Of a stretch of 64,000 nucleotides of DNA, positions 28,884 through 52,514 are shown piece by piece. Origin of the DNA: Phycisphaeraceae bacterium (GTDB lineage Bacteria > Planctomycetota > Phycisphaerae > Phycisphaerales > Zrk34). Positions within the stretch are counted from its first letter, which is position 1, and every line of letters begins with the position of its first letter. The translations under genes were made by a program, and so were the position numbers. The notes under the pieces are model-generated. The model searched no databases. It had not been told where the DNA came from and saw only the letters and a list, made by a program, of their open reading frames with translations. The DNA lies in contig JANQHD010000002.1 in assembly GCA_028282805.1 (NCBI GenBank), positions 1 to 64,000 of the forward strand. The letters run 5' to 3'.

Positions 28884-28904
28884 GCGCATCGCTCCTGTCG
28901 GCGG

Positions 28905-29453: not shown

Positions 29454-29471
29454 GGTGGGTCTCCAATCGGT

Positions 29472-30650: not shown

Positions 30651-30754
30651 CACGTACTCCCAACCACGGAGATGACGCGTTTGTTCGAAGCGTGGTGAGT
30701 CGCCGGTGCGATGCCCCGGTTGGTCATCACGCGATCGGCGCCCTCCGCGGCGTT

Positions 30755-31204: not shown

Positions 31205-31315
31205 AATCCACCGTCCTTTTGAAGTGTGGGCCCGCCGCGGGCCCGAGAGGGTGTTCCGTATCCGACACGTTCTAAGCTACGCGGGCCGGGCCACAGATAC
31301 AAGACAAAATTGGTA

Positions 31316-31334
31316 AATTTTAATGCGATTGCAC
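31316..31334 (-). promoter_or_regulatory. Candidate PhaR operator upstream of the phasin-like gene
   Basis: On the minus strand the sequence fits GTGCAANNGCANNAAAATT. The same 19-bp pattern occurs between phaR and the divergent reductase gene. It lies about 110 bp upstream of the phasin-like ATG. PhaR proteins bind TGC/GCA-rich sites and control phasin genes. Confidence 0.55.
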
Positions 31335-31391
31335 AAAAACGCATCCACGTGATCGCAAACGGGGTTCGGGGGGCGCCGGGGGCGGGGTGGA

Positions 31392-35824: not shown

Positions 35825-37741
35825 ATGGATGACGCTACGATGTCGATGATCGGGGCAAGCTCGAAACGTTTGGCGTTTGTCGTTGCGCTTGCCGTCATGT
35901 CTGTCGCCCCGTGCCCGGCGCAGACCATCACCACTTCGAGCGACCCGACCCAGCCCACCGTGGTCACCGTGCAGACCACCGAGGCGAGCGAGCCGGAGAA
36001 GACGGACGACGGCCTGCCGCCGCTCGGCCCGTCGGTCTGCGAGGTGACCGTCTCGGAGTACATGACGGTCGACCTGCTGGCGCAGAACGTGCGGATGTCG
36101 ACCGTGCTCCAGCACCTGGGCGTCAAGAGCCGGCGGAACATCATCCTCGCCAGCGGCGCCGACCGCGTGGTCAGCGCCACGCTCTACGGCGTGCCGTATT
36201 ACGAGGCGCTCGAAGCCCTGCTCGAGGCCAACGGCCTGGGCTACATCGAGCGCGGTGAGTTCATCAAGGTCTACGCCGCAGACGACCTCGAGAAACGCCT
36301 GCTCAGCGAGGCAGGCCCGCAAACGAAAGTGATCAAGCTCGACTACCTCCGACCGGATGACGCGAAAGAAGCGGTCGGCGCGCTGCTGTCGGACATCGGC
36401 AAGGTCTCCGTCACCAAGGACGACGAAGAGCTCGACGCCGGCACCACCGCCACTTCCGTCGCCGAGCAGCAGGAGCAAGAGGACAAGGTCTACACGCCCA
36501 ACAAGGACGAGTACCCCGTGTTCAACTCGTTGGTGGTGTTCGACTACCAGCCGAACATCGACCGGATCGAGCAGCTGCTCGCCGAGCTCGACACCCGGCC
36601 GGACCAGGTGCTGCTCGAGGCGACGATCATCCAGGCCACGCTCAACGAGCAGAACGCGTTCGGCGTCGACTTCGCGCTGATCGGCGACGTGCAGTTCACC
36701 GAGTTCTTCCGCTTCCCCGAGACGTTCGACCCGCTGAGCCGGCCCGACCGCGGCGACCCCGGCACGCTCGCGCCCGACGTCGACCGCAACGACGGGTTCA
36801 TCGTGTCGGACCCGGGCAACACCGGCCAGGGCGACGCGACGATCCGCGGCGGCATCACCTTCGGCGACGCCGGCATCTTCATCCGCGCCCTCGACAAGGT
36901 CACCGACGTGACACTGCTGTCGAACCCCAAGGTGCTCGCGCTCAACCGACAGCGGGCCAAGGTGCTCGTGGGCACGCGCGTCGGCTACTTCGAAACCACC
37001 ACCGTCGAGAACCAGGTGCTCCAGTCGCTGAAGTTCATCGACACCGGCATCTCGCTCGACGTCCGCCCGTTCATCATGAAGGACGGCCGCATCCGCCTCG
37101 AGCTTTCCCCGAAGGTCTCGGCGGTCAAGTTCCGCGAGGTGCAGGACGCGCAGGGCGTGACCAGCGACATCCCCGACGAGGACGTGCAGACGGTGTCGAC
37201 CGACATCATGGTGCCGCCGGGCCACACCGCGGTGCTCGGCGGCCTGTTCCGTGAGGACGTGCGGCGTGAGCGCTCGCAGGTGCCGATACTCGGCGACATC
37301 CCGCTGGCCGGCGCGGCGTTCAAGGGCCACGACGACGCCATCGACCGCGTCGAGATCATCTTCATGATCAAGCCGACCATCTTGCGGGAGGGCGAGCTGA
37401 TCGAGCAGGGCAAGGAGGGGATGCGCTACTGGGACCGGGTGAGGACGGGCACGCGGCTGGGCTTGCTGCCGTGGAGCCGGGAGTTGCAGAGCGCCAAGCA
37501 CAACCTCGAGGCCGAACGGCTCGCCGCGGCCGGCGACATGGACAAGGCGCTGTGGCACCTGCGCCGTTCGCTGGAGCTGAACCCGCAACAGCCGGAGACG
37601 ATCCGCATCCGTGAACGGCTGGTCGCGCACGCCGACGACTGGACACACGACAGCTTTCTGCGACGGACCATCGAAGCCCAGAGCCGCGCCGCGGAGGAAG
37701 CCCACGCCGCCGCGACCGCCACCACGGAGGTCACGCCATGA
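35825..37741 (+). CDS. Secretin of the Tad/Flp pilus (CpaC/RcpA type) with TPR tail
   Basis: 638 residues; an in-frame ATG at 35840 is an alternative start, neither having a strong ribosome site. Signal peptide to about residue 37 (ending PCPAQ). N-domains at about 85-265, secretin pore domain at about 290-530 with the conserved VPPGHTAVLGGLFRED and KPTILREGE. Residues about 555-615 resemble a TPR hairpin (LAAAGDMDKALWHLRRSLELN), an unusual addition. It should form the outer-membrane channel of the pilus. The stop overlaps the next gene start by 4 bp (ATGA at 37738). Confidence 0.9.
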   Translation: MDDATMSMIGASSKRLAFVVALAVMSVAPCPAQTITTSSDPTQPTVVTVQTTEASEPEKTDDGLPPLGPSVCEVTVSEYMTVDLLAQNVRMSTVLQHLGVKSRRNIILASGADRVVSATLYGVPYYEALEALLEANGLGYIERGEFIKVYAADDLEKRLLSEAGPQTKVIKLDYLRPDDAKEAVGALLSDIGKVSVTKDDEELDAGTTATSVAEQQEQEDKVYTPNKDEYPVFNSLVVFDYQPNIDRIEQLLAELDTRPDQVLLEATIIQATLNEQNAFGVDFALIGDVQFTEFFRFPETFDPLSRPDRGDPGTLAPDVDRNDGFIVSDPGNTGQGDATIRGGITFGDAGIFIRALDKVTDVTLLSNPKVLALNRQRAKVLVGTRVGYFETTTVENQVLQSLKFIDTGISLDVRPFIMKDGRIRLELSPKVSAVKFREVQDAQGVTSDIPDEDVQTVSTDIMVPPGHTAVLGGLFREDVRRERSQVPILGDIPLAGAAFKGHDDAIDRVEIIFMIKPTILREGELIEQGKEGMRYWDRVRTGTRLGLLPWSRELQSAKHNLEAERLAAAGDMDKALWHLRRSLELNPQQPETIRIRERLVAHADDWTHDSFLRRTIEAQSRAAEEAHAAATATTEVTP

Positions 37742-38868
37742 CGCCCCGACACGCCTCAACTTTGGTGTGCGCGGTGCTCGCTGTTCTGGCGTTGACCGCC
37801 TGCGACCCGGGCCACGGCAAGCACACGCAGGCGCTGGCCGACGAGTCGGCGGAGAACCTGCGCGGCATCAAGTCGGCGGCGGCGTTCGACGCGGCCAACC
37901 AGCGGTTCCGCGCCGGCGACTTCGAAGAGGCGCTGAAGCTGGTGCGCCAGTCGACGGCGCTGAACCCGAACGTGGCCGACGCGTACCTGCTCGAGGCGCG
38001 CATCCTCATCGAGGTCGGCCAGCCGCGCAAGGCCTTCGGCGCCATCGAGCGCGGCCGGGCGATCGCGCCCGACGACGCGCGGTTCCCGTACTACCTGGGC
38101 ACCGTGTACGAGAGCGTCGGCCAGAGCGAAGAAGCCCTCGAGCAGTACAAGCTGGCCGCGGGCATGGACACCGGCAGCCCGCAGTACGGCCTGGCGGCGA
38201 GCGAGATGCTCATCGAGATGGGCCGGCTTGATGAGGCCGAGGCGTATGTCAAGCAACAGATCGAGACCTTCACCTTCACCGCGGGCCTGTACCAGACGCG
38301 CGGCCACGTCGCCCTGATGCGCGAGGACCACGACCTGGCGGTGGAGATGTTCGCCTCGGCGGTGACGCTCGACCCCGACGAGATGTCGTTGCGGGAAGAC
38401 CTGTCGCGGATGCTGGTGATCGTGGGGCGTTACGCCGAGGCCGAGTTGCAGCTGCGGCGGATACTGGAGCACCGCGCGTACGCGGCGCGGCGCGACCTGC
38501 GCCACCTGCACGTGCGTTGCCTGCTCGAGATCGACCAGCCGGTCGAGGCGCGCACGATCCTGCGCCAACTGATCCGCGACAAGAACGGCCGGGACTACGA
38601 GGCGTGGACGCGCATGGTCGACGTGGCGCTGATCCTCAACGACGACGCGGTGTTGCGCGACGCGGCCAGCCGGATGATGGCCCTGCAACCGAAGCGGCCC
38701 GACGGCTACCTGGCGCTGGCGCTTTGGCAGCACCGGCAGGGCGACCCGGCGGGGGCGAAGCGGGCGCTGCAACGCTGCGGCGAGTTTGCGCCGGACGACC
38801 CGGCGGTGCGGCAGTTCCTGCGCATGATCGAGTTAGAACAGACGGCAGTTTCCAACGCCGGCGCTTGA
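37738..38868 (+). CDS. TPR lipoprotein, TadD-like
   Basis: 376 residues. A lipoprotein signal ends LALTAC (Cys about 22). About eight TPR units follow, e.g. GDFEEALKLVRQSTALNPNVADAY and GQSEEALEQYKLAAGMD. TadD lipoproteins assist secretin assembly in Tad systems. It is coupled to the secretin gene by a 4-bp overlap and lies 31 bp before cpaB. Confidence 0.82.
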   Translation: MTPRHASTLVCAVLAVLALTACDPGHGKHTQALADESAENLRGIKSAAAFDAANQRFRAGDFEEALKLVRQSTALNPNVADAYLLEARILIEVGQPRKAFGAIERGRAIAPDDARFPYYLGTVYESVGQSEEALEQYKLAAGMDTGSPQYGLAASEMLIEMGRLDEAEAYVKQQIETFTFTAGLYQTRGHVALMREDHDLAVEMFASAVTLDPDEMSLREDLSRMLVIVGRYAEAELQLRRILEHRAYAARRDLRHLHVRCLLEIDQPVEARTILRQLIRDKNGRDYEAWTRMVDVALILNDDAVLRDAASRMMALQPKRPDGYLALALWQHRQGDPAGAKRALQRCGEFAPDDPAVRQFLRMIELEQTAVSNAGA

Positions 38869-38899: not shown

Positions 38900-39730
38900 A
38901 TGGCAAACACCGACACCAATCGTATCACGCTGATCGTCGCGGTCGTCGCCGGGATCATGGCGATGGGCATGGCGTTCGTGTACCTCCGCTCGGTGAGCGG
39001 CGCGGCCGCCGAACAGCCCAAGGCAGAGCCGATGACCAAGGTCGTGGTTGCGAAACACAAGCTCAACGCCAACCACGTGCTCCAACCAGACCAGGACCTC
39101 GACATCGACATGATGCCGAGCAAGTTCGCCCGCAAGAACGTCAAGGCCAGCGAGATCGACGCGGTGCGCGGCCGGCGCATCACGCGCCCGCTTCCCGCGG
39201 GCCACCCGCTGCTGCACAGCGACCTGGTCGCGATCGCGGACTTGGACCTGGCGCCGGGCACGGTGGCGATGTCGCTGGACGTCGACCGCGCGGGCGGGTT
39301 GGTGGGCATCCTCGTGCCGGGGGACAAGGTCGACGTCGTGGTCTCGCACCCCAAGCCCGCCGAGAAGCCCGGCCGCAGCTCGTTGCCGTCCAACCTCGAC
39401 CCGAACAACACCGGTGCCCTGGTCGGCGCGGTGATGGACTCGGTCATGTCGCAGGTCGGCAGCTACAGCCCCGAGTGGGAATCGAACATCGTGCTATCGA
39501 ACGTGGAGGTGTTGGCGGTGGGCACGCGCCTGAACCTGTCGCGCCAGCAGATGCTGCTTTCGGAAGACCGCGGCCTGCGCGGCGGCGGCACGACCGTCAC
39601 GCTCCAGCTGACCCGCGAAGACGCCATCAAGCTCATCGGCGCGCGCGGGGGCGGGTCGAACCTGATCACGCTGTTGCTCCTGCCCAAACCGGAAACCGGC
39701 GCCTCGCTCGGCGGGGGCTCGTTGCAATAA
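38900..39730 (+). CDS. cpaB: Flp pilus assembly protein CpaB (RcpC)
   Basis: 276 residues. Membrane helix at about 10-28. SAF domain at about 45-115 (KVVVAKHKLNANHVLQPDQDL, RGRRITRPLPAGHPLLHSDL). The RcpC domain follows with GTVAMSLDVDRAGGLVGILVPGDKVDVV. It is periplasmic and works with the secretin. The AGG..GG-type ribosome site is weak. Confidence 0.92.
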   Translation: MANTDTNRITLIVAVVAGIMAMGMAFVYLRSVSGAAAEQPKAEPMTKVVVAKHKLNANHVLQPDQDLDIDMMPSKFARKNVKASEIDAVRGRRITRPLPAGHPLLHSDLVAIADLDLAPGTVAMSLDVDRAGGLVGILVPGDKVDVVVSHPKPAEKPGRSSLPSNLDPNNTGALVGAVMDSVMSQVGSYSPEWESNIVLSNVEVLAVGTRLNLSRQQMLLSEDRGLRGGGTTVTLQLTREDAIKLIGARGGGSNLITLLLLPKPETGASLGGGSLQ

Positions 39731-39785: not shown

Positions 39786-41672
39786 ATGCGCGTTGTCGTA
39801 CAAGACACACTGAAAAACCGCCACTGGGTGGCGTACGAAGGGCGGGCCGGCTTCACCGTCGGGCGCAGCCCCGACTGCACCATCGCCCTGGCCGACTCGA
39901 AGTTCGTCTCCCGCAGGCACCTGACCGTCGAGCGCACCGAGGCGGGGTGGGAGGTGCAGGTGCACCCGGGCGTGATGAGCGTTGAGGTCGACGGCGCCAC
40001 GCTCGGGCCGGGCGACCGCAGGCTGCTGTCGGCGGTGAGCCAGATCCAACTGGCCGAGTACGTGCTCGCGGTGATGCGCGACGTGGTCGACACCGAGGAG
40101 GTCGGCCCGGCGCAGACCGTCGAAGACATCGACCGCTTGCAGCGCGACATCCACGCCGCGGTGCTCGACCGCATGGACCTGCGCCGCAGCGGCGCCTCGG
40201 CGATGCGGGCCGACGACGAAACCCTCGACCGCATCAGCGGCATCGTCGACGAGCTGCTGCGTTACGACTTCGCCGACCGCTTGCAGCCTCGCTCCGCGGC
40301 GCGCATGCGCATGGTGCTCATGGCGCTGGAAGCCCGCCTGCTCAAGCTGGTTTCCGGCAGCGGGACCGATGCGCTGGGCGTGGGACAGGTCAAGACGCCC
40401 GGCCACAACATCGCCCTGGAGAACACGGCCGAGGAATACGACCGCCGGCTGTCGCGCCGGCTCGAGCTGAAGCTGGTCGAGGGGGCCGACGGCGACGACC
40501 TGGTCGCCATCACCACGCACCTGCCCGAGCACGTGCCGTTGATGATGGAGCAGATGCCCGAGAACGTGCAGATGTACCTGATCGCGCGGTTCCTCAAGAA
40601 GGTCGTGTGCGACATGATCTTCGGGCTGGGGCCGTTGCAGGACCTGCTCGACACGCCGTCGATCACGGAGATCATGATCGTCAGCCCGACGCAGGTGTAC
40701 ATCGAACGCGACGGCAAGGTGATCCGCTCCAACCGCACGTTCCTCGGCGCCGACGCGCTGCTGAGCGTGATCGAACGCATCGTCGCGCCGCTGGGCCGGC
40801 GGGTGGACCGTTCGCAGCCGCTGGTTGACGCGCGATTGCCCGACGGGTCGCGCGTCAACGCGATCATCCCGCCGCTGGCGCTGAAGGGCCCGTGCCTGAC
40901 CATCCGCCGGTTCCCCTCCACTCGCATCACCGCGGCGGACCTGGTGCGCTGGCAGTCGCTCAGCCCGCAGGCGTGCGCCCTGCTCGAGGCGTCGGTCAAG
41001 GGCAAGCGCAACATCCTCATCTCCGGCGGCACCGGTTCGGGCAAGACGACGCTGCTGAACGTGTTGTCGAGCTTCATCCCCGAAGCCGAGCGCATCGTCA
41101 CCATCGAAGACTCGGCCGAGTTGCAGGTTCAGCAGGAGCACGTGGTCAGCCTCGAGACCCGCCCGGCCAACGTCGAGGGCGAGGGCGCGGTGACGATCCG
41201 CGACCTGATCAAGAACGCGCTGCGCATGCGGCCGGACCGGATCATCGTCGGCGAGTGCCGCGGCGGTGAGGCGTTCGACATGCTCCAGGCGATGAACACG
41301 GGCCATGAGGGCTCGATGACCACGGTGCACGCGAATAACGCCGCCGACACGGTCGCGCGCGTCGAGGCGATGTGCCTGATGGCGGTGGAGATCCCCATCG
41401 CCGCCATCCGCCAGCAGGTCGCCCAGGCGCTGGACATGATCGTGTACGTGCGCCGCCTGCCTGACGGCCGGCGCATGGTCACCGAGGTGTGCGAGGTCGC
41501 GGGCATCAACCCGCACACCGGCGAGATCGACATCCGCCCGATCATGCTCGCCGACATCCACGCAGACAGACCACGGCTCGAACACAACGGGTTCATCCCC
41601 ACGTTCCTCGGCGACCTGGCGCGCGACGACCTGCTCGACGTCGAGGCCCTGTTTGCGAAGGGGTCGGCATGA
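39786..41672 (+). CDS. cpaF: FHA-domain - CpaF/TadA pilus ATPase fusion
   Basis: 628 residues from the ATG at 39786. Residues about 1-95 are an FHA phosphothreonine-binding domain with the conserved FTVGRSPDCTIAL and SRRHLTVER. The rest is a CpaF secretion ATPase: all-alpha and N2 region from about 180, Walker A GGTGSGKTT at about 415, Asp box ITIEDSAELQ, Walker B-like RIIVGECRGGEA and His box TTVHANNAADT. It powers pilus assembly on the cytoplasmic face. FHA fusion implies docking to a phosphorylated partner; a membrane Ser/Thr kinase is encoded four genes on. Its stop overlaps the next start (ATGA). Confidence 0.93.
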   Translation: MRVVVQDTLKNRHWVAYEGRAGFTVGRSPDCTIALADSKFVSRRHLTVERTEAGWEVQVHPGVMSVEVDGATLGPGDRRLLSAVSQIQLAEYVLAVMRDVVDTEEVGPAQTVEDIDRLQRDIHAAVLDRMDLRRSGASAMRADDETLDRISGIVDELLRYDFADRLQPRSAARMRMVLMALEARLLKLVSGSGTDALGVGQVKTPGHNIALENTAEEYDRRLSRRLELKLVEGADGDDLVAITTHLPEHVPLMMEQMPENVQMYLIARFLKKVVCDMIFGLGPLQDLLDTPSITEIMIVSPTQVYIERDGKVIRSNRTFLGADALLSVIERIVAPLGRRVDRSQPLVDARLPDGSRVNAIIPPLALKGPCLTIRRFPSTRITAADLVRWQSLSPQACALLEASVKGKRNILISGGTGSGKTTLLNVLSSFIPEAERIVTIEDSAELQVQQEHVVSLETRPANVEGEGAVTIRDLIKNALRMRPDRIIVGECRGGEAFDMLQAMNTGHEGSMTTVHANNAADTVARVEAMCLMAVEIPIAAIRQQVAQALDMIVYVRRLPDGRRMVTEVCEVAGINPHTGEIDIRPIMLADIHADRPRLEHNGFIPTFLGDLARDDLLDVEALFAKGSA

Positions 41673-42508
41673 ACCTGCTGCTCGCCAGCCTGCTCGCCGG
41701 CCTGAGCATCGCGATGCTCACCTGGGCGTTCCGCGACGACCTGGTCGAGCGTTTCGAGCGCGACATCGACTGGCTGCGGCGGACGATGTGGCGGTTCTCG
41801 CCCGAGCCGTTCAACGCCCGGCCGTGGGTCGTCGGCCTGTACGCCGGGTGGTTCGCGCTGCTGCCGGTGTTCGTGCTGGTCTTCCCGGTGCCGCTGATCG
41901 GGCTGGTGCTCTGGCTGGCGTTGCTGCTGGTCCCGCGCCTGGTGATCGACCGCAAGTGGTCCAAGCACCGCAAGCAGATCGAAACGCAGCTGCCCGACGC
42001 GGTGCTGAAGATATCGTCGGGCGTCGCCTCGGGCATGACGCTGGCCCAGGCGATCACGCACGTCTGCGAGAACCTGGAAGACCCGATCCGCACCGAGTTC
42101 AACCTGATGGCCAACCAGTGGAAGCTGGGCGCGGACCTGATCACGACCGTGGAGGAATCGAAGCGTCGCCTGCAACTGGAGAACTTCAACCTGTTCGCCT
42201 CGGCCCTGGCGACGAACGCGCGCATGGGCGGCAACGTGGTCGACACGCTCGAACGTTTGGCGCATTCGCTCGAAGCGATCGCCCACATGAGGCACGAGGT
42301 CTACGCCGCCACCGCCGAGGGCCGCGCCAACATCAAGGTGCTCGCCGTCGCCCCGGCGATCATGCTCGGCCTGGCGTGCTTCATCGACATCGGCGCGGTG
42401 GGCATGCTGTTCACCACGCCCGTCGGGTGGGTGCTGCTGCTCATCGCCGGGACGCTCACGGCGACGGGGACCATCTGGGCCATGAACATCGTGAACGCGG
42501 ACGTGTAA
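41669..42508 (+). CDS. tadB: Tad inner-membrane platform protein TadB
   Basis: 279 residues from the ATG at 41669, overlapping the ATPase stop by 4 bp. T2SS-F-type fold: N-terminal helix, then helices at VVGLYAGWFALLPVFVLVF and LIGLVLWLALLLVPRLVID, the conserved cytoplasmic segment (QLPDAVLKISSGVASGMTLAQAI, VVDTLERLAHSLEAIAHM), and two C-terminal helices. It couples the ATPase to pilin extraction. Confidence 0.9.
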   Translation: MNLLLASLLAGLSIAMLTWAFRDDLVERFERDIDWLRRTMWRFSPEPFNARPWVVGLYAGWFALLPVFVLVFPVPLIGLVLWLALLLVPRLVIDRKWSKHRKQIETQLPDAVLKISSGVASGMTLAQAITHVCENLEDPIRTEFNLMANQWKLGADLITTVEESKRRLQLENFNLFASALATNARMGGNVVDTLERLAHSLEAIAHMRHEVYAATAEGRANIKVLAVAPAIMLGLACFIDIGAVGMLFTTPVGWVLLLIAGTLTATGTIWAMNIVNADV

Positions 42509-42512
42509 GCTC

Positions 42513-43442
42513 ATGCCGATCAACCCCGACATCGTGCTCCTCGGTGCGGCCCTGGCCACGGGCGTCGCCGTGGCGTGCGCGCTGCGGGTGGCGATGCGCA
42601 TGGCCAGCCCGGTCGCGGCGCTGCACGGCTCGATCACGCGCGAAGCCCGGCAGGCCAAACGCAGCGAGCTGGCCGACCACTCGGCCCTGTTTCGCGTGGC
42701 GCTGGTCGCGCTGCCCGCCGCCACCGTCGTCGCCCGGCGCATCCCGCTGGGCACCACCGCCGAGTCCATCACCGAACGCTACCAGTTGGCCGGCTGGCCC
42801 GGCGGGCTCGAAGACGACGAGCTGCTCGGCCTCGGCCTGCTGCTGGGGTTGGTGCTCGTCGTTCCCGCGGTGTTGGTCATCGTCATGTTCAAACCCATCG
42901 CCGCGCCGCTTGGGCTCGTCGCCGTGCTATTCGGCTTCGGCCTGGTCAGCGCGCAGCTCGGGTCGATGGCGACCAAACGCCAGCGCACGATCGCCCGCAC
43001 CATGCCGTTCGTGTTGGACTTGCTCTCGCTGACCACGCGTGCCGGCGCGTCGACCCGCCAGGCGATCCAGCGCGTGCGCCTCGACTACCAGAACCACCCG
43101 ATCGGCGAGGAGTTCGCGGGCATCGAGGCCGACCTCGACACCGGCACCACGCTGTCCGAGGCGATGAAGCGGCTGGCCGAGCGCGTGCCCGTCGCCGAGA
43201 TCCGCACGTTCAGCGACGAGGTGGTCCAATCCGAAAGCCTCGGCCAACCGCTCGCCGACACGCTCGAACGCCTTTCCGACCGCTTCCGCACCAAACGCGT
43301 GCAGGACGCGCAGGCCACCGCCGGCAAGGCCAAGGTCATGGTGCTCATCCCGGGCATGCTCGTGTTCATCGCGGTGCTGGAGTTGCTCTTTGCGCCGTGG
43401 ATCGTCCGCTGGTTCTATGGAGGCTTCGGCGGCGTGATGTGA
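42513..43442 (+). CDS. tadC: Tad inner-membrane platform protein TadC
   Basis: 309 residues. Second T2SS-F-type protein, with membrane helices at LLGLVLVVPAVLVIVMF and LGLVAVLFGFGLVSAQL, the segment MPFVLDLLSLTTRAGASTRQAIQ, and a C-terminal helix VMVLIPGMLVFIAVLELLF. It starts 4 bp after tadB and probably forms a heteromer with TadB. Confidence 0.9.
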   Translation: MPINPDIVLLGAALATGVAVACALRVAMRMASPVAALHGSITREARQAKRSELADHSALFRVALVALPAATVVARRIPLGTTAESITERYQLAGWPGGLEDDELLGLGLLLGLVLVVPAVLVIVMFKPIAAPLGLVAVLFGFGLVSAQLGSMATKRQRTIARTMPFVLDLLSLTTRAGASTRQAIQRVRLDYQNHPIGEEFAGIEADLDTGTTLSEAMKRLAERVPVAEIRTFSDEVVQSESLGQPLADTLERLSDRFRTKRVQDAQATAGKAKVMVLIPGMLVFIAVLELLFAPWIVRWFYGGFGGVM

Positions 43443-43464
43443 GTCACGCCGCGTATGATTCGCT

Positions 43465-44283
43465 ATGGCTTTCTACGTCACGGTCATCTCGGGCATCGAC
43501 CAGGGCAAGGTCGTCCGCATCGACGACAAGCCCTGCACCGTCGGCCGGTCGCCCAACGCGGCGTTGTCGCTGGAAGACCCGTCCGTCGGCTTCGAGCACG
43601 TCGTGCTCACCGGCGAGGGCGGCAAGCTGTTCGTCGAAAACCTCTCCACGCTCGGCACACGCGTGCGCGGCCGGGTCATCGAAGCACGCACCGCCCTGGC
43701 GTCGGGCGAACAGGTCACCCTCTCCGACAGCTGCAAGCTCGAGGTCGGCAAGACCGGCGACGCGTCCGCCAAACAAAGCGGGTCGCGCGTCGTGACGCTG
43801 GCGGTGGTCGTGTTGTTGCTGGCGGTCGTCGTCGGCGGGGCGGCGGTGGTCATGAAACAGCGGGCACACGAGGCCGGCCCGCCCGGCATCCGCGAGATCC
43901 ACTGGCAGACCGGCTACACCCGGATCAGCCAGCGGCTCGAGCAGTGGGCCAAGGCGGGGCGGTTCGACCCGCACATGGTGGTGATGTTCCACGAGGCCTG
44001 GCGGCTGGAGCAGAGCGGCGACCTCGTCGCGGCGCGCGAGGCCTGGCTCGACCTGCAGAAAGCGCTGATGACCGCGCACCTCGTCGGGGCGATGGAACCC
44101 AAAGACACCTTCGCTTCGCACGGTGGCAACTCCACCACGGCGCTCGGCGTGGTCATGGGCTGGGACCCCGACCACTCCAGCGACGACTTCCAGTTCGACA
44201 CCGACGGCGCCTACGCCGAGGCGACCTGGGCCTTCATCGTGCAACGCGTGCTCATCCTTAAGAAACGGATCGATCAGCAATGA
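43465..44283 (+). CDS. Membrane protein with N-terminal FHA domain
   Basis: 272 residues. FHA domain at about 1-92 (VRIDDKPCTVGRSPNAALSL, NLSTLGTRVRGRVIEA). The usual Ser-x-x-His pair is reduced to FEHVVL. One membrane helix at about 113-134 (VVTLAVVVLLLAVVVGGAAVV) and an outer domain of about 130 residues without known match. The start overlaps nothing but lies 22 bp after tadC; its stop overlaps the kinase start by 4 bp. It is probably an adaptor or sensor for the adjacent kinase. Confidence 0.82.
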   Translation: MAFYVTVISGIDQGKVVRIDDKPCTVGRSPNAALSLEDPSVGFEHVVLTGEGGKLFVENLSTLGTRVRGRVIEARTALASGEQVTLSDSCKLEVGKTGDASAKQSGSRVVTLAVVVLLLAVVVGGAAVVMKQRAHEAGPPGIREIHWQTGYTRISQRLEQWAKAGRFDPHMVVMFHEAWRLEQSGDLVAAREAWLDLQKALMTAHLVGAMEPKDTFASHGGNSTTALGVVMGWDPDHSSDDFQFDTDGAYAEATWAFIVQRVLILKKRIDQQ

Positions 44284-46802
44284 GCCATCAGATCAAGGAT
44301 TTCATCGTCGGCGACCTGATCGGGCGCGACGGGCGCAACAGCGTCTACGAAGCGACCCAGGTCATGGGCCAGGGCCTGACCCGGCCGGCCGCGCTCAAGC
44401 TATTGCACGGCTGGGACACCAGCGACCCGACCGAGATCGAGCAGCTCTCCCACGAGGTGCAGATGATGATCGAGGTCGGCACCGCGCCGCACGTGCTGAC
44501 GGTGTACGACTTCGGCGTCGACGAGGAAATGGGCCCGTGGATTGCGATGGAACGCGCCATGGGCAACCTCAACGCCGAACTGACCGACGAACCGGTCAAG
44601 CCCAACGCCGTCCGCTTGCTGCTGCGTCAGATGCTCGAGGCGCTGGCCGTGCTGCACACCGCCAACCCGCCCATCACCCACCGCGACGTCAAGCCGCGCA
44701 ACATCCTCCGCACCGCCAACAACGCCTGGGTGCTCAGCGACTTCTCCCTCGCCACGCGCGACGAGTCGCAGAAGACGATGGACAAGCTCACCGTCAAGTA
44801 CGCCGCGCCCGAACTGCTCGACACCAGCCACGGCCCGGAGAGCACGGCCGTCGACCTCTACGCGCTGGGTTTCAGCGCCTACGAGTACGCGCTCGGCCAA
44901 GAGCTGTTCCGCGCACAGTTCCCGTCGATCTTCGACCCCTACGCCGGCGACGAAGAGCAGCACGCCGACGACCGCAGCAAGTGGATGTACTGGCACTCGT
45001 CGGTGCAGATGCAAGTGCCGCCGGTCAAGGAGCTGATCCCCGACTTCCCCGAAGACCTTTCCGACACCATTGCCTCGTTGATGACCAAGCCGCTGGCCGA
45101 ACGCGTCGGATCGGCCGCCGAGGCGCTGGAGATGATGTCCGACACGTCCGCGATCGACGTGTCGATGCTGCGCCCGGCCAAGAAAGAACCCCGCAAGGAC
45201 ACCCAGCCCGTGGTGTCGCTGCGGACCGGCCTGCTGGCGGTGCTGACGTTGGCGCTGGTGGCCGTGTTGGTGTTCTTCCTGCTGCCGAACCTGCTGTTCA
45301 GCCCGAAGCTGCAACTGGCGCAAAAGAAGTTCGCGGCCGACACGCCGATGATCGCGGTCTCCGGGCGCGTGAGCAACCTGCCCAGGGGCGGCAAGGCGCA
45401 GATCGCCGTAAAAGAAACGGGGATGTTCCCGGTCTCGTTCGATAGCGCGGGCAACTTCATCGCGGAAGCGAAGGCGCCCAGGCTGGAAACGACGCGCGCC
45501 CAGTTCATCCTCCGCGACCGCGCGAACAAGGTGGTCATCAGCCGGTTCTTTGACCTGGAGCGCCACCCGCCGAAGCAGGTGTCGATCAAGATCGTCAGCC
45601 GGCCCGCCATCGCCGGCGCCACCGTGCGTGCGCGATCCACCACCGCCACGGGTGCGCCTCAAGAAGTCACCACCGATGCCGCGGGTGTCGCGGCGCTGAA
45701 GATGCCGTACGGCACTTTCGACATCGAGATCACCCACCCCCGCTACCAAACGGTAACGAGCACGCCCGACACCGGCATCGACCCGACCAAGGTGCTGAAC
45801 CTGAAGATGGTGCCGCTGAGCAAGGCCGACATCGCCGACAAACGCAGCCGTTTGGAGAAGGAGATCGAAGAACTCAAGCGCCGCGCCGAAGCGGGCGACC
45901 CCGAGGCGATCGCCCTGCTGAAACAGAAACAGAGAGAGCTCGATTTGCTCGGCCCGAAGGATGAAGACAAGGGCGACGGCGTCGGGCAGATCGATCGCCC
46001 GCTCACCCCCGCGGAACGCAAAGCGCAACTCGAACAGCGACTCAGGGAACTGGCTGATCGCAACGACCCCGAAGCGATCGCCGAGAGGCAGCGCATCCAG
46101 CGCGAGCTGCGTATGTTGAACGAAGGCAGACCGGCCGCTTCCGTCCGCCAGGATTTGCAAGATCGCAAGGCGCAGATCGATGCGCGGATCGAAGAGCTTC
46201 GCCGCCGCGCCGAGGCGGGCGATCCGGCGGCCAAGGCCGAGTTGGAGAAGCTGCTGCGTGAGAAGGAGATCATCGAAGCCATGGAGCGCGGCGACATCAC
46301 GCCCGAGCAGGCGGCGGCCCTGATCAAGGGCACGCTCGGCTTCGACAAGATCGACGAACAGACCCTGCTCAGCGTGCCGTTGCCGCGCCTCAAGATCTTC
46401 GTCAAGAATAACGTGCCCACCGGCGCGATCCGTGTGGACGAGATCCCCGCGCTGGACAAGCTGCGTGTCAGCGGCCCGGTGTTGAACGAGAAGGAGCTGA
46501 CGACCCTGCTCATCCGCCTCGGCCCGGCGCTCAAGCGGCTGCAACTCGAGCTGCGCGTCGACCCCGGCGAACTGTGCGACGGGCTGGAGTCGGTGCTGAC
46601 CAAGTCCGGTTACGAGAAGGTCCGCGTGCACCCGTTCCTCTCGGAAACCAAGCACCACTCGCTGCTCGTGCAGTTCGATGACGACGGCCAAGCCGGCCGC
46701 GCCAACGCCGCCCGGCAGATCGCGTCGACCTTCGTGGTCGAGCCCGACCTGGTCAGCGTGCAGGGCTTGCGCAGCGAACCGGCGCAGCAGGAAACCGAGT
46801 AA
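44280..46802 (+). CDS. Membrane Ser/Thr protein kinase linked to the Tad locus
   Basis: 840 residues. Kinase domain about 1-290: IGRDGRNSVYEATQ, AALKLLHGW lysine, HRDVKPRNILR catalytic loop, and SDFSLAT in place of DFG. The Gly-to-Ser change is unusual but compatible with activity. Membrane helix about 313-335 (LLAVLTLALVAVLVFFLLP). The outer part has a beta-sandwich-like carboxypeptidase-regulatory segment (about 350-520), then a charged coiled coil with repeats RRAEAGDPEA and RRRAEAGDPAA, and a C-terminal globular domain. As last gene of the pilus operon, beside two FHA proteins, it is the probable phospho-writer. Confidence 0.88.
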   Translation: MSHQIKDFIVGDLIGRDGRNSVYEATQVMGQGLTRPAALKLLHGWDTSDPTEIEQLSHEVQMMIEVGTAPHVLTVYDFGVDEEMGPWIAMERAMGNLNAELTDEPVKPNAVRLLLRQMLEALAVLHTANPPITHRDVKPRNILRTANNAWVLSDFSLATRDESQKTMDKLTVKYAAPELLDTSHGPESTAVDLYALGFSAYEYALGQELFRAQFPSIFDPYAGDEEQHADDRSKWMYWHSSVQMQVPPVKELIPDFPEDLSDTIASLMTKPLAERVGSAAEALEMMSDTSAIDVSMLRPAKKEPRKDTQPVVSLRTGLLAVLTLALVAVLVFFLLPNLLFSPKLQLAQKKFAADTPMIAVSGRVSNLPRGGKAQIAVKETGMFPVSFDSAGNFIAEAKAPRLETTRAQFILRDRANKVVISRFFDLERHPPKQVSIKIVSRPAIAGATVRARSTTATGAPQEVTTDAAGVAALKMPYGTFDIEITHPRYQTVTSTPDTGIDPTKVLNLKMVPLSKADIADKRSRLEKEIEELKRRAEAGDPEAIALLKQKQRELDLLGPKDEDKGDGVGQIDRPLTPAERKAQLEQRLRELADRNDPEAIAERQRIQRELRMLNEGRPAASVRQDLQDRKAQIDARIEELRRRAEAGDPAAKAELEKLLREKEIIEAMERGDITPEQAAALIKGTLGFDKIDEQTLLSVPLPRLKIFVKNNVPTGAIRVDEIPALDKLRVSGPVLNEKELTTLLIRLGPALKRLQLELRVDPGELCDGLESVLTKSGYEKVRVHPFLSETKHHSLLVQFDDDGQAGRANAARQIASTFVVEPDLVSVQGLRSEPAQQETE

Positions 46803-46808
46803 GCAAGT

Positions 46809-47384
46809 TCACCCGCCCAGTTGCAGCGACCAGGCGATGTCGTCGTCGATGGTGTGTTCGAGGACGCCCTCGAACCACTCGCGCACGAGGTCGCCCTCGT
46901 CGGCGTGCTGGCTGTACACGAACGGGTAACTCGACCAGGTCCACGGCGAACGCGCGGTGTAGGCCCGGCGGTCGAGCGTGATCGACCCGTCGAACGGGCC
47001 GAACCCCGCGCTGTAGTTGACCTTGAGCTTCGCGCCGGACTCGGCGACGGGGTTGGGCAGCTCGGTCGGGTCGGGCGCGCCGGGGGGTTGGTTGATCGCG
47101 CTGAAGTCGGCCGCCTCGGGGTTGTCGTAATACCCCTGGCCGTGCGGTTTGCTGGGCGCCGGGTTGGAAAGGGTCGGGTGGTCGAGGTCGTGGAAGCCCA
47201 CCGCGGTGCCCTCGAAGGTCACGCGGTACGCCTCGATGCGCGTCATCTGGTCGCCCGCCCAGATGTTGTAGATCGCCGGCGAGACGAGCATGAAGAAGTA
47301 GAGCACGACGAGCATGAGCATCAGCTCCGTCGCCGCGACGCCGCGCCGGTCAGTGGCTGAAGATTTCGTCGTAGTCGTTGGCAT
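46809..47384 (-). CDS. TadE-type minor pseudopilin
   Basis: 191 residues. The N-terminus DRRG/VAATELMLMLVVLYFFML is a type IVb prepilin leader: Gly15 at -1 and Glu at +5, then a hydrophobic helix. The remaining domain is soluble with no Cys. It should be cleaved by the prepilin peptidase encoded in the same operon. It is the last gene of the minus-strand Tad operon and overlaps the previous gene by 35 bp. Confidence 0.78.
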   Translation of the reverse strand: MPTTTTKSSATDRRGVAATELMLMLVVLYFFMLVSPAIYNIWAGDQMTRIEAYRVTFEGTAVGFHDLDHPTLSNPAPSKPHGQGYYDNPEAADFSAINQPPGAPDPTELPNPVAESGAKLKVNYSAGFGPFDGSITLDRRAYTARSPWTWSSYPFVYSQHADEGDLVREWFEGVLEHTIDDDIAWSLQLGG

Positions 47385-48801
47385 GGCTCGAACCGATCCC
47401 CATCGCGTCGAACATGTTGTTGATCGCCGGGTTGCTCCTGCGGGTGTGGTCCAGCTGGTCGATCTCCGTGAGCCGCGGCTGCCACTGCCAGCCCGCGGTG
47501 GACCACACGCGGTAGGGCAGGACGGTGACGTTGAACCGGACCGTGCTCATGAGGATGCTGTTCTCGGTCTCGCTGTACCAGTTGAACGTCTCGGCCTGCG
47601 CCGCGGCGGTGACGTGGCCGGTGTCGTTGATCGCGTACTTGAAGAAGCCCGGTGCGAGGAAGCGGTCGCGGATGTCGGGGTACTGCGCAATCGCGATGAC
47701 CGAGTAGTACTGCTTATCGTCGAGGCTGCCGGGGTGGGTCTCCCAGAAACGCTGATGGGCGGGGATGTGGAAGTCGTCGTGGTAGATGCCGGCGAACGCG
47801 GCCAGCGAGACCGCGCTGGTCACCATCCAGAAGATCTTCGCCTTGCCGATGTCGTTCATCTGCTCGAGCAGGCCCTTGTCGTCGGAATCGTCGACGTCGG
47901 TGTCTTTCTTGTCGTTGGGGTCTTTCTTCTCTTCTTCCTTCTCCCACCGGCTCTGCTGCACATCGTTGCCCGAGGCCTTGTACCAGCCGTTGTCGTCGAT
48001 GAAGAATCGCGCGGCCAGCAGCCACAGCGCCGGCGCGAAGTTGTCGACGAACGTGCCGCGCTTGACGGGCGCGTGGACCCGGTTCACGCGGTTCTGCCCG
48101 GGCTCGACGAGCGTGATATCGACGCCGTAGTAATCGCCGATCGACGCGCGTTGCGCCTCGATCACGGTGGGCAAGGCGGCCACCAGGTTCCTTTGGTAGG
48201 CGGCCAGGTCGCCGGTCTGGCGCAGGAACCGGCCCGAGAAGCCGCGGATGATCCCGCCCCCGCCCAGCGCCGCGTCGAGGAACCGCACGTACGCCACCGC
48301 CTCCGCGGCGATGCGGGCCAACTCGTAAAACAGGTACGCCAGCGCCACCGGCAGCGTCCACGGCGGGGCGAAGTTCAGCGAGTTGAACCGCGGGATCACG
48401 GTGCGCACGAGGTGGATCACCCACATGATGGGCACGCCGATCATCACCGCGGCCGACGCCTGGGCCGAGGTCTGCGCGGTGAGGTTGCGCAGCATGATCA
48501 TGTTCGTCGCGGTGACCTGGTTCATCGCCCGGCTCTTCCACAGCGCCGCGGAGTAGGCGGCCGAGTCGGCGGCGGTCTGGGCGTGGATCTTCGCCGAGGC
48601 GACCCGGCCGGTGTTCCAGACCGCGGCGGTCGCGACGTACATCGTCGACGCCATGAACACGAACAGGATCGTCACGTTCGCCAGCCGGCAGCGGTGCAAA
48701 CGCATGATGCGCTGGATCAGGGTCAGGTGCGCACGGAACGCCGACGTGTCGCCCACGACCAGCCGCCACCCGCGTTTTGTCCAGCGCTTTGCGCGGCTCA
48801 T
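47350..48801 (-). CDS. TadG-like pilus assembly protein
   Basis: 483 residues. A cationic N-terminus of about 40 residues precedes a membrane helix (VTILFVFMASTMYVATAAV) and then SAKIHAQTAADSAAYSAALW, the hallmark of Tad-associated TadG/TadE-like proteins. A second hydrophobic region is at about 130-165. A charged segment EEEKKDPNDKKDTDVDDSDD lies near 295. It lacks the +5 Glu of prepilins, so it is probably not processed. Confidence 0.75.
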   Translation of the reverse strand: MSRAKRWTKRGWRLVVGDTSAFRAHLTLIQRIMRLHRCRLANVTILFVFMASTMYVATAAVWNTGRVASAKIHAQTAADSAAYSAALWKSRAMNQVTATNMIMLRNLTAQTSAQASAAVMIGVPIMWVIHLVRTVIPRFNSLNFAPPWTLPVALAYLFYELARIAAEAVAYVRFLDAALGGGGIIRGFSGRFLRQTGDLAAYQRNLVAALPTVIEAQRASIGDYYGVDITLVEPGQNRVNRVHAPVKRGTFVDNFAPALWLLAARFFIDDNGWYKASGNDVQQSRWEKEEEKKDPNDKKDTDVDDSDDKGLLEQMNDIGKAKIFWMVTSAVSLAAFAGIYHDDFHIPAHQRFWETHPGSLDDKQYYSVIAIAQYPDIRDRFLAPGFFKYAINDTGHVTAAAQAETFNWYSETENSILMSTVRFNVTVLPYRVWSTAGWQWQPRLTEIDQLDHTRRSNPAINNMFDAMGIGSSHANDYDEIFSH

Positions 48802-48810
48802 GCTTGTTCC

Positions 48811-50019
48811 TTACGGCGTGCGGCCCGGGAGGGGCACGTAATCGAACCCGCCCGGCGAGATCAACGGAAGCCCCGTCCGCGAGCCGGTCGACTGGATACG
48901 GCTCGCGTGCGTGAGCGTGATCACGTTCGCCTTCAGCGTCGGGTCGTACTCGGTCAGGCCCGGCACCAGGCTCAGGCCCGGCAGCGTCAGCGGCAACCGG
49001 TAATGGACCGTCACCTCCACGCTCTTGGGCGCGATGTAGTTGTCGATGTCGACCCCCGGGCTCCACCCCGCGAACGGGTTGGGGATCTGGATCATGTCGC
49101 CGATGTCCCGGACCACGTCCAGGAACGGGTCGAACGCCAGCGACCGGAACGCGCGCAGCAGCGAGCCCGAGATCGGGTTGGTCTTCGGCAGCGGCACGCC
49201 CAGCGCATTGCTCAGCTGCTTGTTGAACTCCTTCTCGATCATCTTCAGCACCTTGTCGAAGACCGCCTCGACGAGGCCTGCGAAGATTTCGCCGAACGGC
49301 GAGAACGAGTCGGGCATGGTGTACTCGAGGCGTGTTTTCAGGAAGTCGACGTCGAACTCGGCGGTGGTCGCGGCCTCGGAAAACAGGCGGCGCATCGTGT
49401 AGTCCTTGTTGTTCACCCACAGCTGCTGCTCGTGCATCAGCCGATCGATCGCGATGGCGTTGCGCGAGCCGGGCGGTCGGTGGGCGATCGACGCGAGCAC
49501 GCGCTCGGCGGTCTGTTCGGCGGCCTGCTGGCCGTCGGCCTTGATCTGGTCGGTGAACGAGTTGGCGAAGTTCGCCAGGCCGCCGCCGAAGTCGAGCTTG
49601 CGCTCCATATGGACCGTCGCCGAGCGGGCCGCGGCGAACGACGCGTAGCGCACCGTCAGCGAGGCGTGGGCGATGATCATGAGTTGGAAGATGATCGAGA
49701 ACAGCAGGAACAGGGCCGGCAGCGCCAGCGCGAACTCGGTGGCGACCGTGCCGCGCTGCGCCGCGTGCAGGCGGAGGAACGACCGCATCCGCCTCAGCTG
49801 CCGCGCCGCGATCAGCCAGATCAACACGATCGCGCACGCGCCGGTGACCAGGGCGGACGCCATCACCGTCGCGAGCCGGGCTTGCGGGTCCAGCCGGAGC
49901 AAGTCCATCGCCCAGTGGGGGTGCGCGACGACCAGCAGCGCCAGGTAGCCGATGGCGACGAGGCTCACGACCGCCGCGGCGCGGGCGAGCGTCTGTCGCG
50001 TTGGGGTCGGTCGGCTCAT
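48811..50019 (-). CDS. TadE-like protein with N-terminal membrane extension
   Basis: 402 residues. The TadE motif QRG/TVATEFALALPALFLLF sits at about residues 89-107, not at the N-terminus. It is preceded by two extra hydrophobic segments (AAAVVSLVAIGYLALLVV, VMASALVTGACAIVLIWLI). Standard prepilin peptidase cleavage at Gly90 would release the extension. The downstream domain begins SLTVRYASFAAARSATV. The start overlaps the peptidase stop by 4 bp. Function within the pilus is inferred from the operon. Confidence 0.75.
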   Translation of the reverse strand: MSRPTPTRQTLARAAAVVSLVAIGYLALLVVAHPHWAMDLLRLDPQARLATVMASALVTGACAIVLIWLIAARQLRRMRSFLRLHAAQRGTVATEFALALPALFLLFSIIFQLMIIAHASLTVRYASFAAARSATVHMERKLDFGGGLANFANSFTDQIKADGQQAAEQTAERVLASIAHRPPGSRNAIAIDRLMHEQQLWVNNKDYTMRRLFSEAATTAEFDVDFLKTRLEYTMPDSFSPFGEIFAGLVEAVFDKVLKMIEKEFNKQLSNALGVPLPKTNPISGSLLRAFRSLAFDPFLDVVRDIGDMIQIPNPFAGWSPGVDIDNYIAPKSVEVTVHYRLPLTLPGLSLVPGLTEYDPTLKANVITLTHASRIQSTGSRTGLPLISPGGFDYVPLPGRTP

Positions 50020-50813
50020 CCGGACAACACCGTCAGGCTCTGCTGCACCGCCACGTGCACGTTGAACAGCGGCACCGTCAGGTAACCGCCCAGCAGCGAA
50101 AACACGAACGGCGCCTGGTGCCGGCCGAAGTGGCCCGGCTCGGCTACCTTGCGTGTGGTGATCGTTTCGAAGAGGAACAGGAACACGCCCTGGATCAGGC
50201 TCACCAGCTTGCCGCGCACCGCGAGGTTGATGACGCCGATGACCGCGGCGATCATCAGGGTGTTGACCAACACGGGCACCACCGCTTGGAAACCGAGCAA
50301 CGCGCCGACGGCGGTCATGAGTTTGACGTCACCGCCGCCCAGGCCCCGCATGGCGAACCCGCCGATGCCGATCCCCGCGCACAGCGCGAAGCCGAGCAGC
50401 ACGTCGCGCCACGCCGCGGCCCCCAGCCACAGCGACGCGTAGTCGACGCCGGTCGCCTGCAACAGCGGGTTGACGCCCAGCCCGATCGCCAGCCCGATCA
50501 GCAGGGCGGGGTAGTTCAAGCGGTTGGGGATCATGCTCTTGGTGGTGTCGAACCACGCGCCCACGACCAACACGCCGAACACCACCATCTCGACGAAGTA
50601 CCCCCGGCTGCGGTCGCCGAGGATGACCTGCAACAGCGACGCCGCGACCGCGCACACGCTCAGGCCGATCACCCACGCGGTGGGCGCACGGAAACGGGCC
50701 CGCGGTTCGGTCGGGGCCTCGACGTGCTGCGCGTCGGGTTCGTCCGGCAGCGGCAGCGACGAGCTTTCGGCTTCGGCGCCGATCGTGGGTCCTCCTGCGC
50801 GTGCCCGACCCAC
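50016..50813 (-). CDS. Prepilin peptidase (TadV/CpaA)
   Basis: 265 residues from a GTG at 50813. A24 aspartic protease with the two catalytic Asp motifs GAWFDTTKSMIPN (about 88) and GGGDVKL (about 162) and six or more membrane helices. The start is uncertain: a perfect AGGAGG lies at 50796-50791 on the minus strand, inside the assigned N-terminus, 7 nt before an in-frame ATC codon (50783). If that rare start is real, ten residues are lost. It should process the two Flp prepilins and the pseudopilin. Confidence 0.9.
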   Translation of the reverse strand: MGRARAGGPTIGAEAESSSLPLPDEPDAQHVEAPTEPRARFRAPTAWVIGLSVCAVAASLLQVILGDRSRGYFVEMVVFGVLVVGAWFDTTKSMIPNRLNYPALLIGLAIGLGVNPLLQATGVDYASLWLGAAAWRDVLLGFALCAGIGIGGFAMRGLGGGDVKLMTAVGALLGFQAVVPVLVNTLMIAAVIGVINLAVRGKLVSLIQGVFLFLFETITTRKVAEPGHFGRHQAPFVFSLLGGYLTVPLFNVHVAVQQSLTVLSG

Positions 50814-50861: not shown

Positions 50862-51086
50862 TTACGGGGCTTCGAACTTCGGCTGCTCGGCGGCCTCGTC
50901 CATCTCGCCGGCCTTCTCGCTCATGCGGTCCGAGGCCCACATGATGAACGCGTAGATCGCGATCAACACGACCAACGCCACCACGATCAACAGCACCCAC
51001 TCAACGGTGTTCGGTCCCGATTCGTCCTTGTGCAACCGACGCAGGAAGCTGGCGGCCCGATCCTTGGTTCGCTTGACTAGATTCAC
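50862..51086 (-). CDS. Flp-type IVb prepilin (major pilin candidate)
   Basis: 74 residues from a GTG at 51086, chosen because CGGAGA lies 7 nt upstream. The leader ends KDESG and the mature part starts PNTVEWVLLIVVALVVLIAI, with Gly at -1 and Glu at +5, as in type IVb Flp prepilins. A C-terminal acidic tail of about 20 residues follows. It is the likely main pilin subunit. Confidence 0.85.
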   Translation of the reverse strand: MNLVKRTKDRAASFLRRLHKDESGPNTVEWVLLIVVALVVLIAIYAFIMWASDRMSEKAGEMDEAAEQPKFEAP

Positions 51087-51198
51087 GGCAGATCTCCGTA
51101 CCTGGCCAGAAGAGATTGGTTTGTCCGACCGCGCACTCCCGTCGCGTCGGAACGGCACCGCCGCATTATAGACGATGCGGCGCGTTGACACACCACAT

Positions 51199-51377: not shown

Positions 51378-52514
51378 TCAACCCTCGAACAGCGGTTTCG
51401 TCAGCTTCACTTCGCCGGCTAAACCCATCCAGCTTACCTCGTCGGCGAAGCCCGGCCGCCGGCCCGTGGCGACCAACTCCGGCTCGCCGCCCTTGATTTC
51501 TAGCGCGAACAGGTCCGCCAGCTTGTAGTTGTTGGCCCGGTCGTCGTAATCCACCTCGCTGATGTGCGTGATCAGCCGCCGGCCCGACGGCAGGCGCGAG
51601 GTCTGGATGATCAGGTCCACCGCCATCGCGATCTGCCGACGCAGCGCCGCCAGCGGCAGGCCCAAGTCCGCCATCAGGCACATCGTCTCCAGCCGGCCGC
51701 ACGACTGCGACGGGGTGTCGGCGTGGAGCGTGGCGAGCGTGCCGCTGTGGCCCGAGCTCATGGCCTGGATCATGTCCAGCGCCTCGCCGCGACGCACCTC
51801 GCCCACCACGATCCGGTCCGGCCGCATCCGCAGCGACGTGACGAACAGGTCGCGCACCGTCACCTCACCCTCGCCGAACTCGTCGGCCCGGCGGGCCTCC
51901 ATCTGCACGGTGTGCTCGACCTGCATCTGCAACTCGCGCGTGTCCTCGATGATGACCACGCGCTGCGACGGGTCGAACCAGGTGCTCAGGATGTTCAACA
52001 GGGTGGTCTTGCCCGAGCCGGTGCCGCCGGAGACGATGATGTTCTTCTTCGCCTTAACGGCGATGCGCATCATCTCCACGGCCTGCTCGGTGGCCGCTTT
52101 CTTCTCGATCAGGAACCGCTCGTTGACCGCCGCGCGGAGGAACCGGCGGATGTTCACCGACACGCCGCCCTCGGTGATCGGCGGCATCACCACGCACACG
52201 CGCGACCCGTCCGGCAGCCGGCCGTCGAGGATCGGTTCCTTGTCGCTGATGGTCTTGCCGCAGAACTGGGCGATGGTGTTCACCGCCGCCAGCAGGGCAC
52301 GCTCGGACTCGAACGCCACGTCGGTCTTCTCGATCCGCCCCGCCCGCTCGACGTAGACCGCGTCGGTGCCGGTGATCATGATCTCCGCCACGGCCGGGTC
52401 GTCGAGCAGTCGCCGCACCGGCCCGAGGAAGTGGCGGATGCCCATCTCGATCACCAACTGGTGACCGTCGTCCCGTTGCGGGGTTTCAGCAGCCGTGGCA
52501 GCGGTATCGTCCAT
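51378..52514 (-). CDS. cpaF: Second CpaF/TadA-type pilus ATPase, without FHA
   Basis: 378 residues. Complete catalytic core: DGRLPDGSRVCVVMPPI, Walker A SGGTGSGKTTLLN at about 163-171, VIIEDTRELQMQ, RIVVGEVRRGEALDM and TLATLHADTPSQ. It lacks the FHA and most of the N-terminal region of the other CpaF. First gene of the minus-strand Tad operon, just before the pilin genes. It may drive a different step (for example retraction or pseudopilin work), or form a mixed hexamer with the FHA-CpaF. Confidence 0.9.
   Translation of the reverse strand: MDDTAATAAETPQRDDGHQLVIEMGIRHFLGPVRRLLDDPAVAEIMITGTDAVYVERAGRIEKTDVAFESERALLAAVNTIAQFCGKTISDKEPILDGRLPDGSRVCVVMPPITEGGVSVNIRRFLRAAVNERFLIEKKAATEQAVEMMRIAVKAKKNIIVSGGTGSGKTTLLNILSTWFDPSQRVVIIEDTRELQMQVEHTVQMEARRADEFGEGEVTVRDLFVTSLRMRPDRIVVGEVRRGEALDMIQAMSSGHSGTLATLHADTPSQSCGRLETMCLMADLGLPLAALRRQIAMAVDLIIQTSRLPSGRRLITHISEVDYDDRANNYKLADLFALEIKGGEPELVATGRRPGFADEVSWMGLAGEVKLTKPLFEG

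Follow-up and report, generated by a model that had tools for sequence, protein, structure and literature searches.

A transmembrane kinase and FHA proteins in the two-motor Tad pilus loci of planctomycetes: a predicted phosphothreonine relay, apparently decayed in one locus type

In many planctomycetes, to judge from gene order and residue conservation, a kinase and phosphate-reading FHA domains appear to be built into the Tad pilus machine. The kinase, an FHA-bearing CpaF motor (FHA-CpaF), and an FHA membrane protein (FHA-TM) form a conserved set, and comparison of loci supports its standing where CpaE-type Tad loci have CpaE. The reading preferred here, at a probability of roughly 0.5, is that of a planctomycete two-motor Tad apparatus in which an inner-membrane kinase/FHA module would replace CpaE, with a relay predicted in two locus types (B and B′) and decayed in the type (A) to which the locus described below belongs. 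To our knowledge, the gating and placement of Tad motors are poorly understood outside CpaE systems.

The window—that is, the whole stretch of 64,000 nucleotides analyzed, from contig JANQHD010000002.1 of a Phycisphaeraceae bacterium—contains the following Tad genes, those on the forward strand facing those on the reverse strand.

35825..37741, +, secretin (CpaC/RcpA-like); PF00263, E 1.5e-37
37738..38868, +, TPR lipoprotein (TadD-like); TPR_19, E 2e-25; its homologue adjoins CpaC in G355
38900..39730, +, CpaB/RcpC; PF16976, E 2.5e-15, SAF domain
39786..41672, +, FHA-CpaF motor; FHA PF00498, E 1.1e-6; T2SSE, E 3.3e-61
41669..42508, +, TadB platform protein; PF00482 (T2SSF), E 9.3e-16
42513..43442, +, TadC platform protein; PF00482 (T2SSF), E 2.2e-17
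43465..44283, +, FHA-TM; FHA, E 1.8e-7; one TM helix
44280..46802, +, transmembrane Hanks-type kinase; Pkinase, E 1e-26; one TM helix; periplasmic CarboxypepD_reg domain
46809..47384, -, candidate TadE-like pseudopilin, from its position and N-terminal hydrophobic segment; no Pfam match
47350..48801, -, TadG-like protein; PF13400, E 1.1e-6, above cut-off
48811..50019, -, TadE-like protein; PF07811, E 3e-6, above cut-off
50016..50813, -, prepilin peptidase (CpaA/TadV); PF01478, E 7.6e-14
50862..51191, -, candidate Flp-type pilin; PF16982 (Flp1_like), E 1.5e-4, under the curated cut-off
51378..52514, -, CpaF2, a second CpaF motor without FHA; PF00437, E 4.9e-48; Walker A/B intact

Among the components by which a Tad/Flp system is recognized, CpaF/TadA ATPase, TadB, TadC, secretin, CpaB, and prepilin peptidase are all present. 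The genes for FHA-CpaF and TadB, and likewise those for FHA-TM and the kinase, overlap by 4 bp. The best NCBIfam model for FHA-CpaF is that of the TadA family, with a score under the equivalog cut-off of the model, and the N-terminal FHA domain gives the motor the class III CpaF architecture. The first-pass annotation had placed an FHA domain at the N-terminus of the cpaF product, which the two domain matches bear out, and had described a second FHA protein and a transmembrane kinase downstream in the same overlapping operon, in agreement with the open reading frames, domains, and 4-bp overlaps. It nevertheless understated the case, having overlooked CpaF2, the convergent pilin and prepilin peptidase genes, and a second locus in the same genome (contig C32) with FHA-CpaF, FHA-TM, a kinase, and an FHA-less CpaF in the type B layout.

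Several other genes were noted in this genome. The window contains an ECF sigma factor gene followed by that of a TPR-repeat kinase, which has no relation to the Tad kinase (18211-21592, reverse strand; kinase at 18211-20958), and a cluster for PHA synthesis with a PhaC-like synthase subunit, a thiolase, and a PHA regulator (27780-31889, reverse strand). A DUF4914 protein that matches its Pfam model over the full length (1015.6 bits) adjoins the Tad locus (53156-55066, forward strand), and an FHA-GAF-histidine kinase fusion is encoded on contig C32 (L085:2010-3779).

When planctomycete Tad loci were surveyed for the same trio, the layout was found to recur across Planctomycetota. Within the order, a Tad-type kinase (full-length or contig-truncated) occurs in 20 of 61 genomes, of which 19 also encode a full-length FHA-CpaF, the exception (G008) being a fragmented assembly; the other 41 genomes contain neither Tad-type kinase nor FHA-CpaF. 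Of these 19 genomes, 17 have the two genes in a single locus; the genes lie on different contigs in G004 and are separated by 73 kb in G025. Wider sampling, by a motor-profile search and a class-wide kinase search, yielded 40 further Tad-linked kinases from other orders of the class; because the sampled sequences are related, many of them coming from MAGs, these and all other counts given here overstate the number of independent events.

Four kinds of locus were distinguished. Type A is the layout of the window and comprises seven loci (the window, G017:C51, G233, G355, G091, G212, and the Phycisphaerales MAG OFTM382); type B is the layout of the C32 locus, in this order; type B′ is its counterpart in other orders of the class; and type C is a third kind, from genomes of the f32, f82, and f73 families. 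Types B and B′ are commoner than type A. Some loci deserve separate mention. A type B locus in G017 (L041/L060, G017:C14), where a type A locus occurs as well, shows no detectable TadC or FHA-TM after TadB. A MAG labelled Deltaproteobacteria (OFTM108, L108) carries FHA-CpaF, FHA-TM, kinase, and FHA-less CpaF that branch among planctomycete sequences, the result of either transfer or a mislabelled bin. The Tad loci L101 and L104 (G302, G138) encode several canonical FHA proteins, among them one that has a pair of FHA domains, together with two kinases, one of which bears an FHA domain of its own.

Standard Tad systems use TadZ/CpaE, and its reported absence from the window was borne out and could be extended to the genome. 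At the sensitivity of a search with a receiver + AAA_31 protein from the classic Tad locus of a relative, no CpaE was found near the window locus, near the C32 locus, or elsewhere in the genome, which is 99.8% complete; the only match (E 1.6e-7) is a ParA-family protein that has no receiver domain. A search with Pfam TadZ_N (PF16968) is uninformative in this respect, because the positive controls gave no match either. In classic Tad loci of the same order (G006:C104, G034, and G037), CpaE, with its receiver and AAA_31 domains, lies directly before an FHA-less CpaF, and these loci contain neither FHA nor kinase. One genome, G006, holds both kinds of locus.

The Walker A and B motifs are intact in both motors, Walker A of the window FHA-CpaF being located at residue 414. 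In the motor tree, FHA-CpaF proteins of types A, B, and C form one clade (support 100/93) and their FHA-less partners a separate clade (support 100/100), indicating that the two-motor arrangement is old. FHA-CpaF and CpaF2 could split extension and retraction between them. Types A and C, joined at a node with support of 81/59, may share a single loss of FHA-TM recognition. All four types retain paired CpaF motors in one Tad locus, an arrangement also seen in Myxococcota (L116, L126).

FHA domains that read phosphothreonine use an SRxH motif and an Asn as contact residues. Neither FHA domain of the window has the full Arg/Ser/His/Asn set, both lacking the Asn. The FHA domain of the motor (approximately residues 24-89) retains GR27, S42, R43, and H45, but not the Asn of the NG motif, where it reads VMSV. 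FHA-TM, which consists of a cytoplasmic FHA domain, one TM helix, and a helical periplasmic domain, is degenerate (GFEH, STLGT), with only Arg and His remaining of the contact residues. Judging from the predicted model—that is, with a confidence of 83-91 across the FHA domain, and with GarA/OdhI as the best solved matches (rmsd 1.3-1.4 Å)—the FHA fold is not in doubt, and the variation lies in the phosphothreonine-contact residues. The losses extend throughout type A: the Asn is absent from the motor FHA in 7/7 loci and from FHA-TM in 7/7, and FHA-TM, having also lost Ser and/or Arg, is degenerate in its contact residues in all seven.

In type B, R, S, R, H, N, and G of FHA-TM are invariant in 16/16 sequences (hypergeometric p 1e-6), which have a mean column identity of only 37%; the Asn is missing from every motor FHA, the Ser is mostly replaced by Ala, and some conserved columns of this domain lie outside the phosphothreonine site. 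In type B′, it is the motor FHA that keeps R, S, R, and H (28/28 loci from other orders) and Asn (27/28; p 6e-5), with the Asn of FHA-TM lost in 16 of 18. By these residues, the canonical reader differs by lineage, being FHA-TM in B and the motor in B′. R, S, and N are mostly present in the type C motor FHA, and a further relative, G100, has a canonical FHA-TM. A model in which both FHA domains read phosphothreonine was considered and rejected, nearly every B/B′ locus having a single canonical FHA.

The window kinase retains all five catalytic residues (K40, E59, D136, N141, and D154), with DFS in place of DFG and a degenerate Gly loop; a WMYWH insert is located near residue 235 and the TM helix at about 317-335. 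Its periplasmic part was modeled, at low confidence, as an Ig/transthyretin-like domain followed by a coiled coil. A BON or ring-building reading of the C-terminus was also considered, and is not claimed because the model is of low confidence (pLDDT 63, pTM 0.29) and the fold matches are weak and mainly Ig/transthyretin-like. Among type A kinases, a catalytic residue has been lost in four of seven. The G233 kinase is intact, HND is found in that of G017, the Asn is gone from that of OFTM382, and three near homologues of the window kinase (G355, G091, and G212) are pseudokinases. Each pseudokinase sits in a locus with a degenerate FHA-TM (Fisher p 0.002-0.005, from hand-entered counts uncorrected for kinship). 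By comparison, K, HRD, Asn, and DFG are kept in 40/40 type B′ kinases, counts from which the catalytic Glu of helix C was excluded because its alignment is unreliable in some of them, and in all type B kinases but one (DLG). An RWMxWH-type insert is common to Tad-linked kinases of types A, B, B′, and C and is absent from the other kinases examined, and the periplasmic domains vary by lineage (CarboxypepD/PEGA, TPR, and CusF/DUF5666). A search of the genome for a cognate PP2C phosphatase gave no PF13672 match, while PF13672 controls were matched in seven genomes.

In the cytoplasmic linker of the type B kinases, T-x-x-[LIV]-P stands directly before the TM helix in all 20 kinases of this discovery set (for example, PTAPLPKRSK), and the remainder of the linker is unalignable. 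In the C32 kinase, the Thr of the motif is T322. The motif arises in 2.3% of shuffled linkers on average and occurs in 0/13 non-Tad kinases; its Thr is the sole invariant Thr in an alignment of 19 kinases, with a local conservation of 0.19. The pattern was fixed first and then applied to the 40 kinases from other orders, which were obtained afterwards. Among the 38 readable linkers, the Thr is present in 38 and the motif in 35, the misses being TAPMP (twice) and TAPLT. Further relatives have ATVALP (G100) and PTAVVP (Planctomycetota bin.536). The motif occurs in 0/6 type A and 0/3 type C kinases, and the type C motor FHA site is largely kept without it, so that a rule of writer, site, and reader is not universal. 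The window kinase likewise lacks the motif, and has in its linker a T-x-x-V (DTQPV) that is unconserved across type A; given this sequence and the five catalytic residues, some kinase activity is possible.

The pattern of writer, phosphosite, and reader in B/B′ loci is consistent with a phosphothreonine switch. From the computed gene set, linkage, residues, and motif, we infer that the kinase would phosphorylate the juxtamembrane Thr of T-x-x-[LIV]-P, on itself or in trans, and that the phosphothreonine would dock the canonical FHA domain, either that of FHA-TM beside the motor (type B) or the motor's own (type B′). Docking would hold or gather FHA-CpaF at the envelope assembly site, or gate it there, and would be controlled by a periplasmic signal through the periplasmic domain of the kinase. 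In its full form, this mechanism would be a Tad-dedicated relay in which the juxtamembrane phosphothreonine recruits the motor via an FHA domain that belongs to the motor in some lineages and to a membrane adaptor in others, the relay taking the place of CpaE-type control in a machine with two motors. It is put forward tentatively, at slightly less than even odds.

The first-pass annotation had suggested a phosphothreonine switch controlling the assembly or position of the pilus motor; a switch fits the relatives, but is not supported for the window's own locus, with its degenerate FHA-TM, lost motor Asn, DFS, missing motif, and pseudokinase homologues. A simple phospho-switch is doubtful in type A as judged from its residues, because FHA-TM contacts are lost in 7/7 loci, the motor Asn in 7/7, and a kinase catalytic residue in 4/7. 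Here the relay would have decayed, with no canonical FHA, the motif gone, and the kinase drifting towards a pseudokinase. Since it looks decayed, the likeliest main role of the window proteins is that of a scaffold, independent of phosphorylation, linking motor, membrane, and periplasm. Some kinase activity may persist or have been rewired, and there may be crosstalk with the type B locus elsewhere in this genome, which is intact.

The strongest competitor to a decayed type A relay is the original proposal taken literally, in which an active window kinase makes phosphothreonine, FHA-CpaF (and FHA-TM) reads it, and the motor switches. It is unlikely, even though the kinase keeps K, E, D, N, and D, the motor FHA keeps Arg, Ser, Arg, and His, and its counterpart in B′ loci is the canonical reader there: the reader losses are uniform across type A, the operon has been kept where four of seven kinases lost catalytic residues, and the juxtamembrane motif is missing. 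That FHA contact residues matter is indicated by the T6SS protein Fha of Agrobacterium, whose R30A/S46A form served as the non-binding control and whose phosphothreonine binding is required for T6SS activation (PMC3953482).

Rather less probable still is a structural role for kinase and FHA proteins in every lineage, with T-x-x-[LIV]-P serving as a phosphorylation-independent docking peptide. Persistence of pseudokinases and degenerate FHA domains in intact loci, conserved columns outside the phosphothreonine site in the motor FHA of type B, and the T3SS YscD family as a structural FHA-like precedent would all suit such a role, which is opposed by the conservation of catalytic residues in about 60 type B/B′ kinases and of canonical FHA contacts in whichever protein retains them. 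A general envelope or stress kinase merely housed in the Tad operon and acting elsewhere in the cell, as the abundance of planctomycete kinases and their lineage-variable periplasmic domains might suggest, is improbable given the insert common to the Tad-linked kinases and a presence or absence that tracks FHA-CpaF.

Under the preferred reading of a kinase/FHA module in place of CpaE, a conserved locus would pair two CpaF motors, both with intact Walker motifs, with a dedicated kinase and FHA readers; the analysis names one threonine and two reader domains as targets for mutation, and the locus suggests why class III CpaF bears an FHA domain. Type A loci would represent a natural case of writer, site, and reader decaying together.

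Parts of this arrangement have already been published, namely FHA-CpaF as class III CpaF (PMC12019362) and FHA-rich Tad-like loci with KilF (PMC8460266). In the open-access literature, no publication was found that joins a kinase to Tad loci or reports the juxtamembrane motif, the swap of readers, or planctomycete loci with two motors. Class III CpaF (FHA-IDR-CpaF) is one of three CpaF architectures, found mostly in betaproteobacteria, and shares with the window motor an N-terminal FHA domain fused to a Tad motor ATPase; the section describing it deals with a single bifunctional CpaF and mentions neither a kinase nor a second motor or second FHA membrane protein (PMC12019362). The Kil apparatus of Myxococcus likewise combines an FHA-fused ATPase (KilF) and several FHA proteins, for which a signalling role was suggested, in a Tad-like locus; unlike the present system, it is a prey-killing machine, and kinase, TadZ, and CpaE are unmentioned (PMC8460266).

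Matches to the window FHA-TM include the Pfam YscD cytoplasmic model as well as YscD structures, with GarA/OdhI closer in fold, and T3SS YscD/SctD similarly has an FHA-like cytoplasmic domain, a TM helix, and a periplasmic part; the machine is a different one, however, and type B FHA-TM retains the phosphothreonine residues. The docking step resembles that of mycobacterial PknB, a transmembrane kinase whose phosphorylated juxtamembrane segment docks the FHA protein FhaA, although there the context is cell division and morphogenesis, not a pilus motor (PMC12077195). In the T6SS threonine phosphorylation pathway (PpkA/Fha/TssL), which also employs a membrane kinase and an FHA reader, phosphothreonine on an inner-membrane component activates the secretion machine (PMC3953482). 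Kinase and FHA reader are encoded together here as in that pathway; the differences are that no PF13672 PP2C was found in the genome, that the phosphosite is predicted to lie on the kinase, that the reader is perhaps the motor itself, and that the host machine is a Tad pilus.
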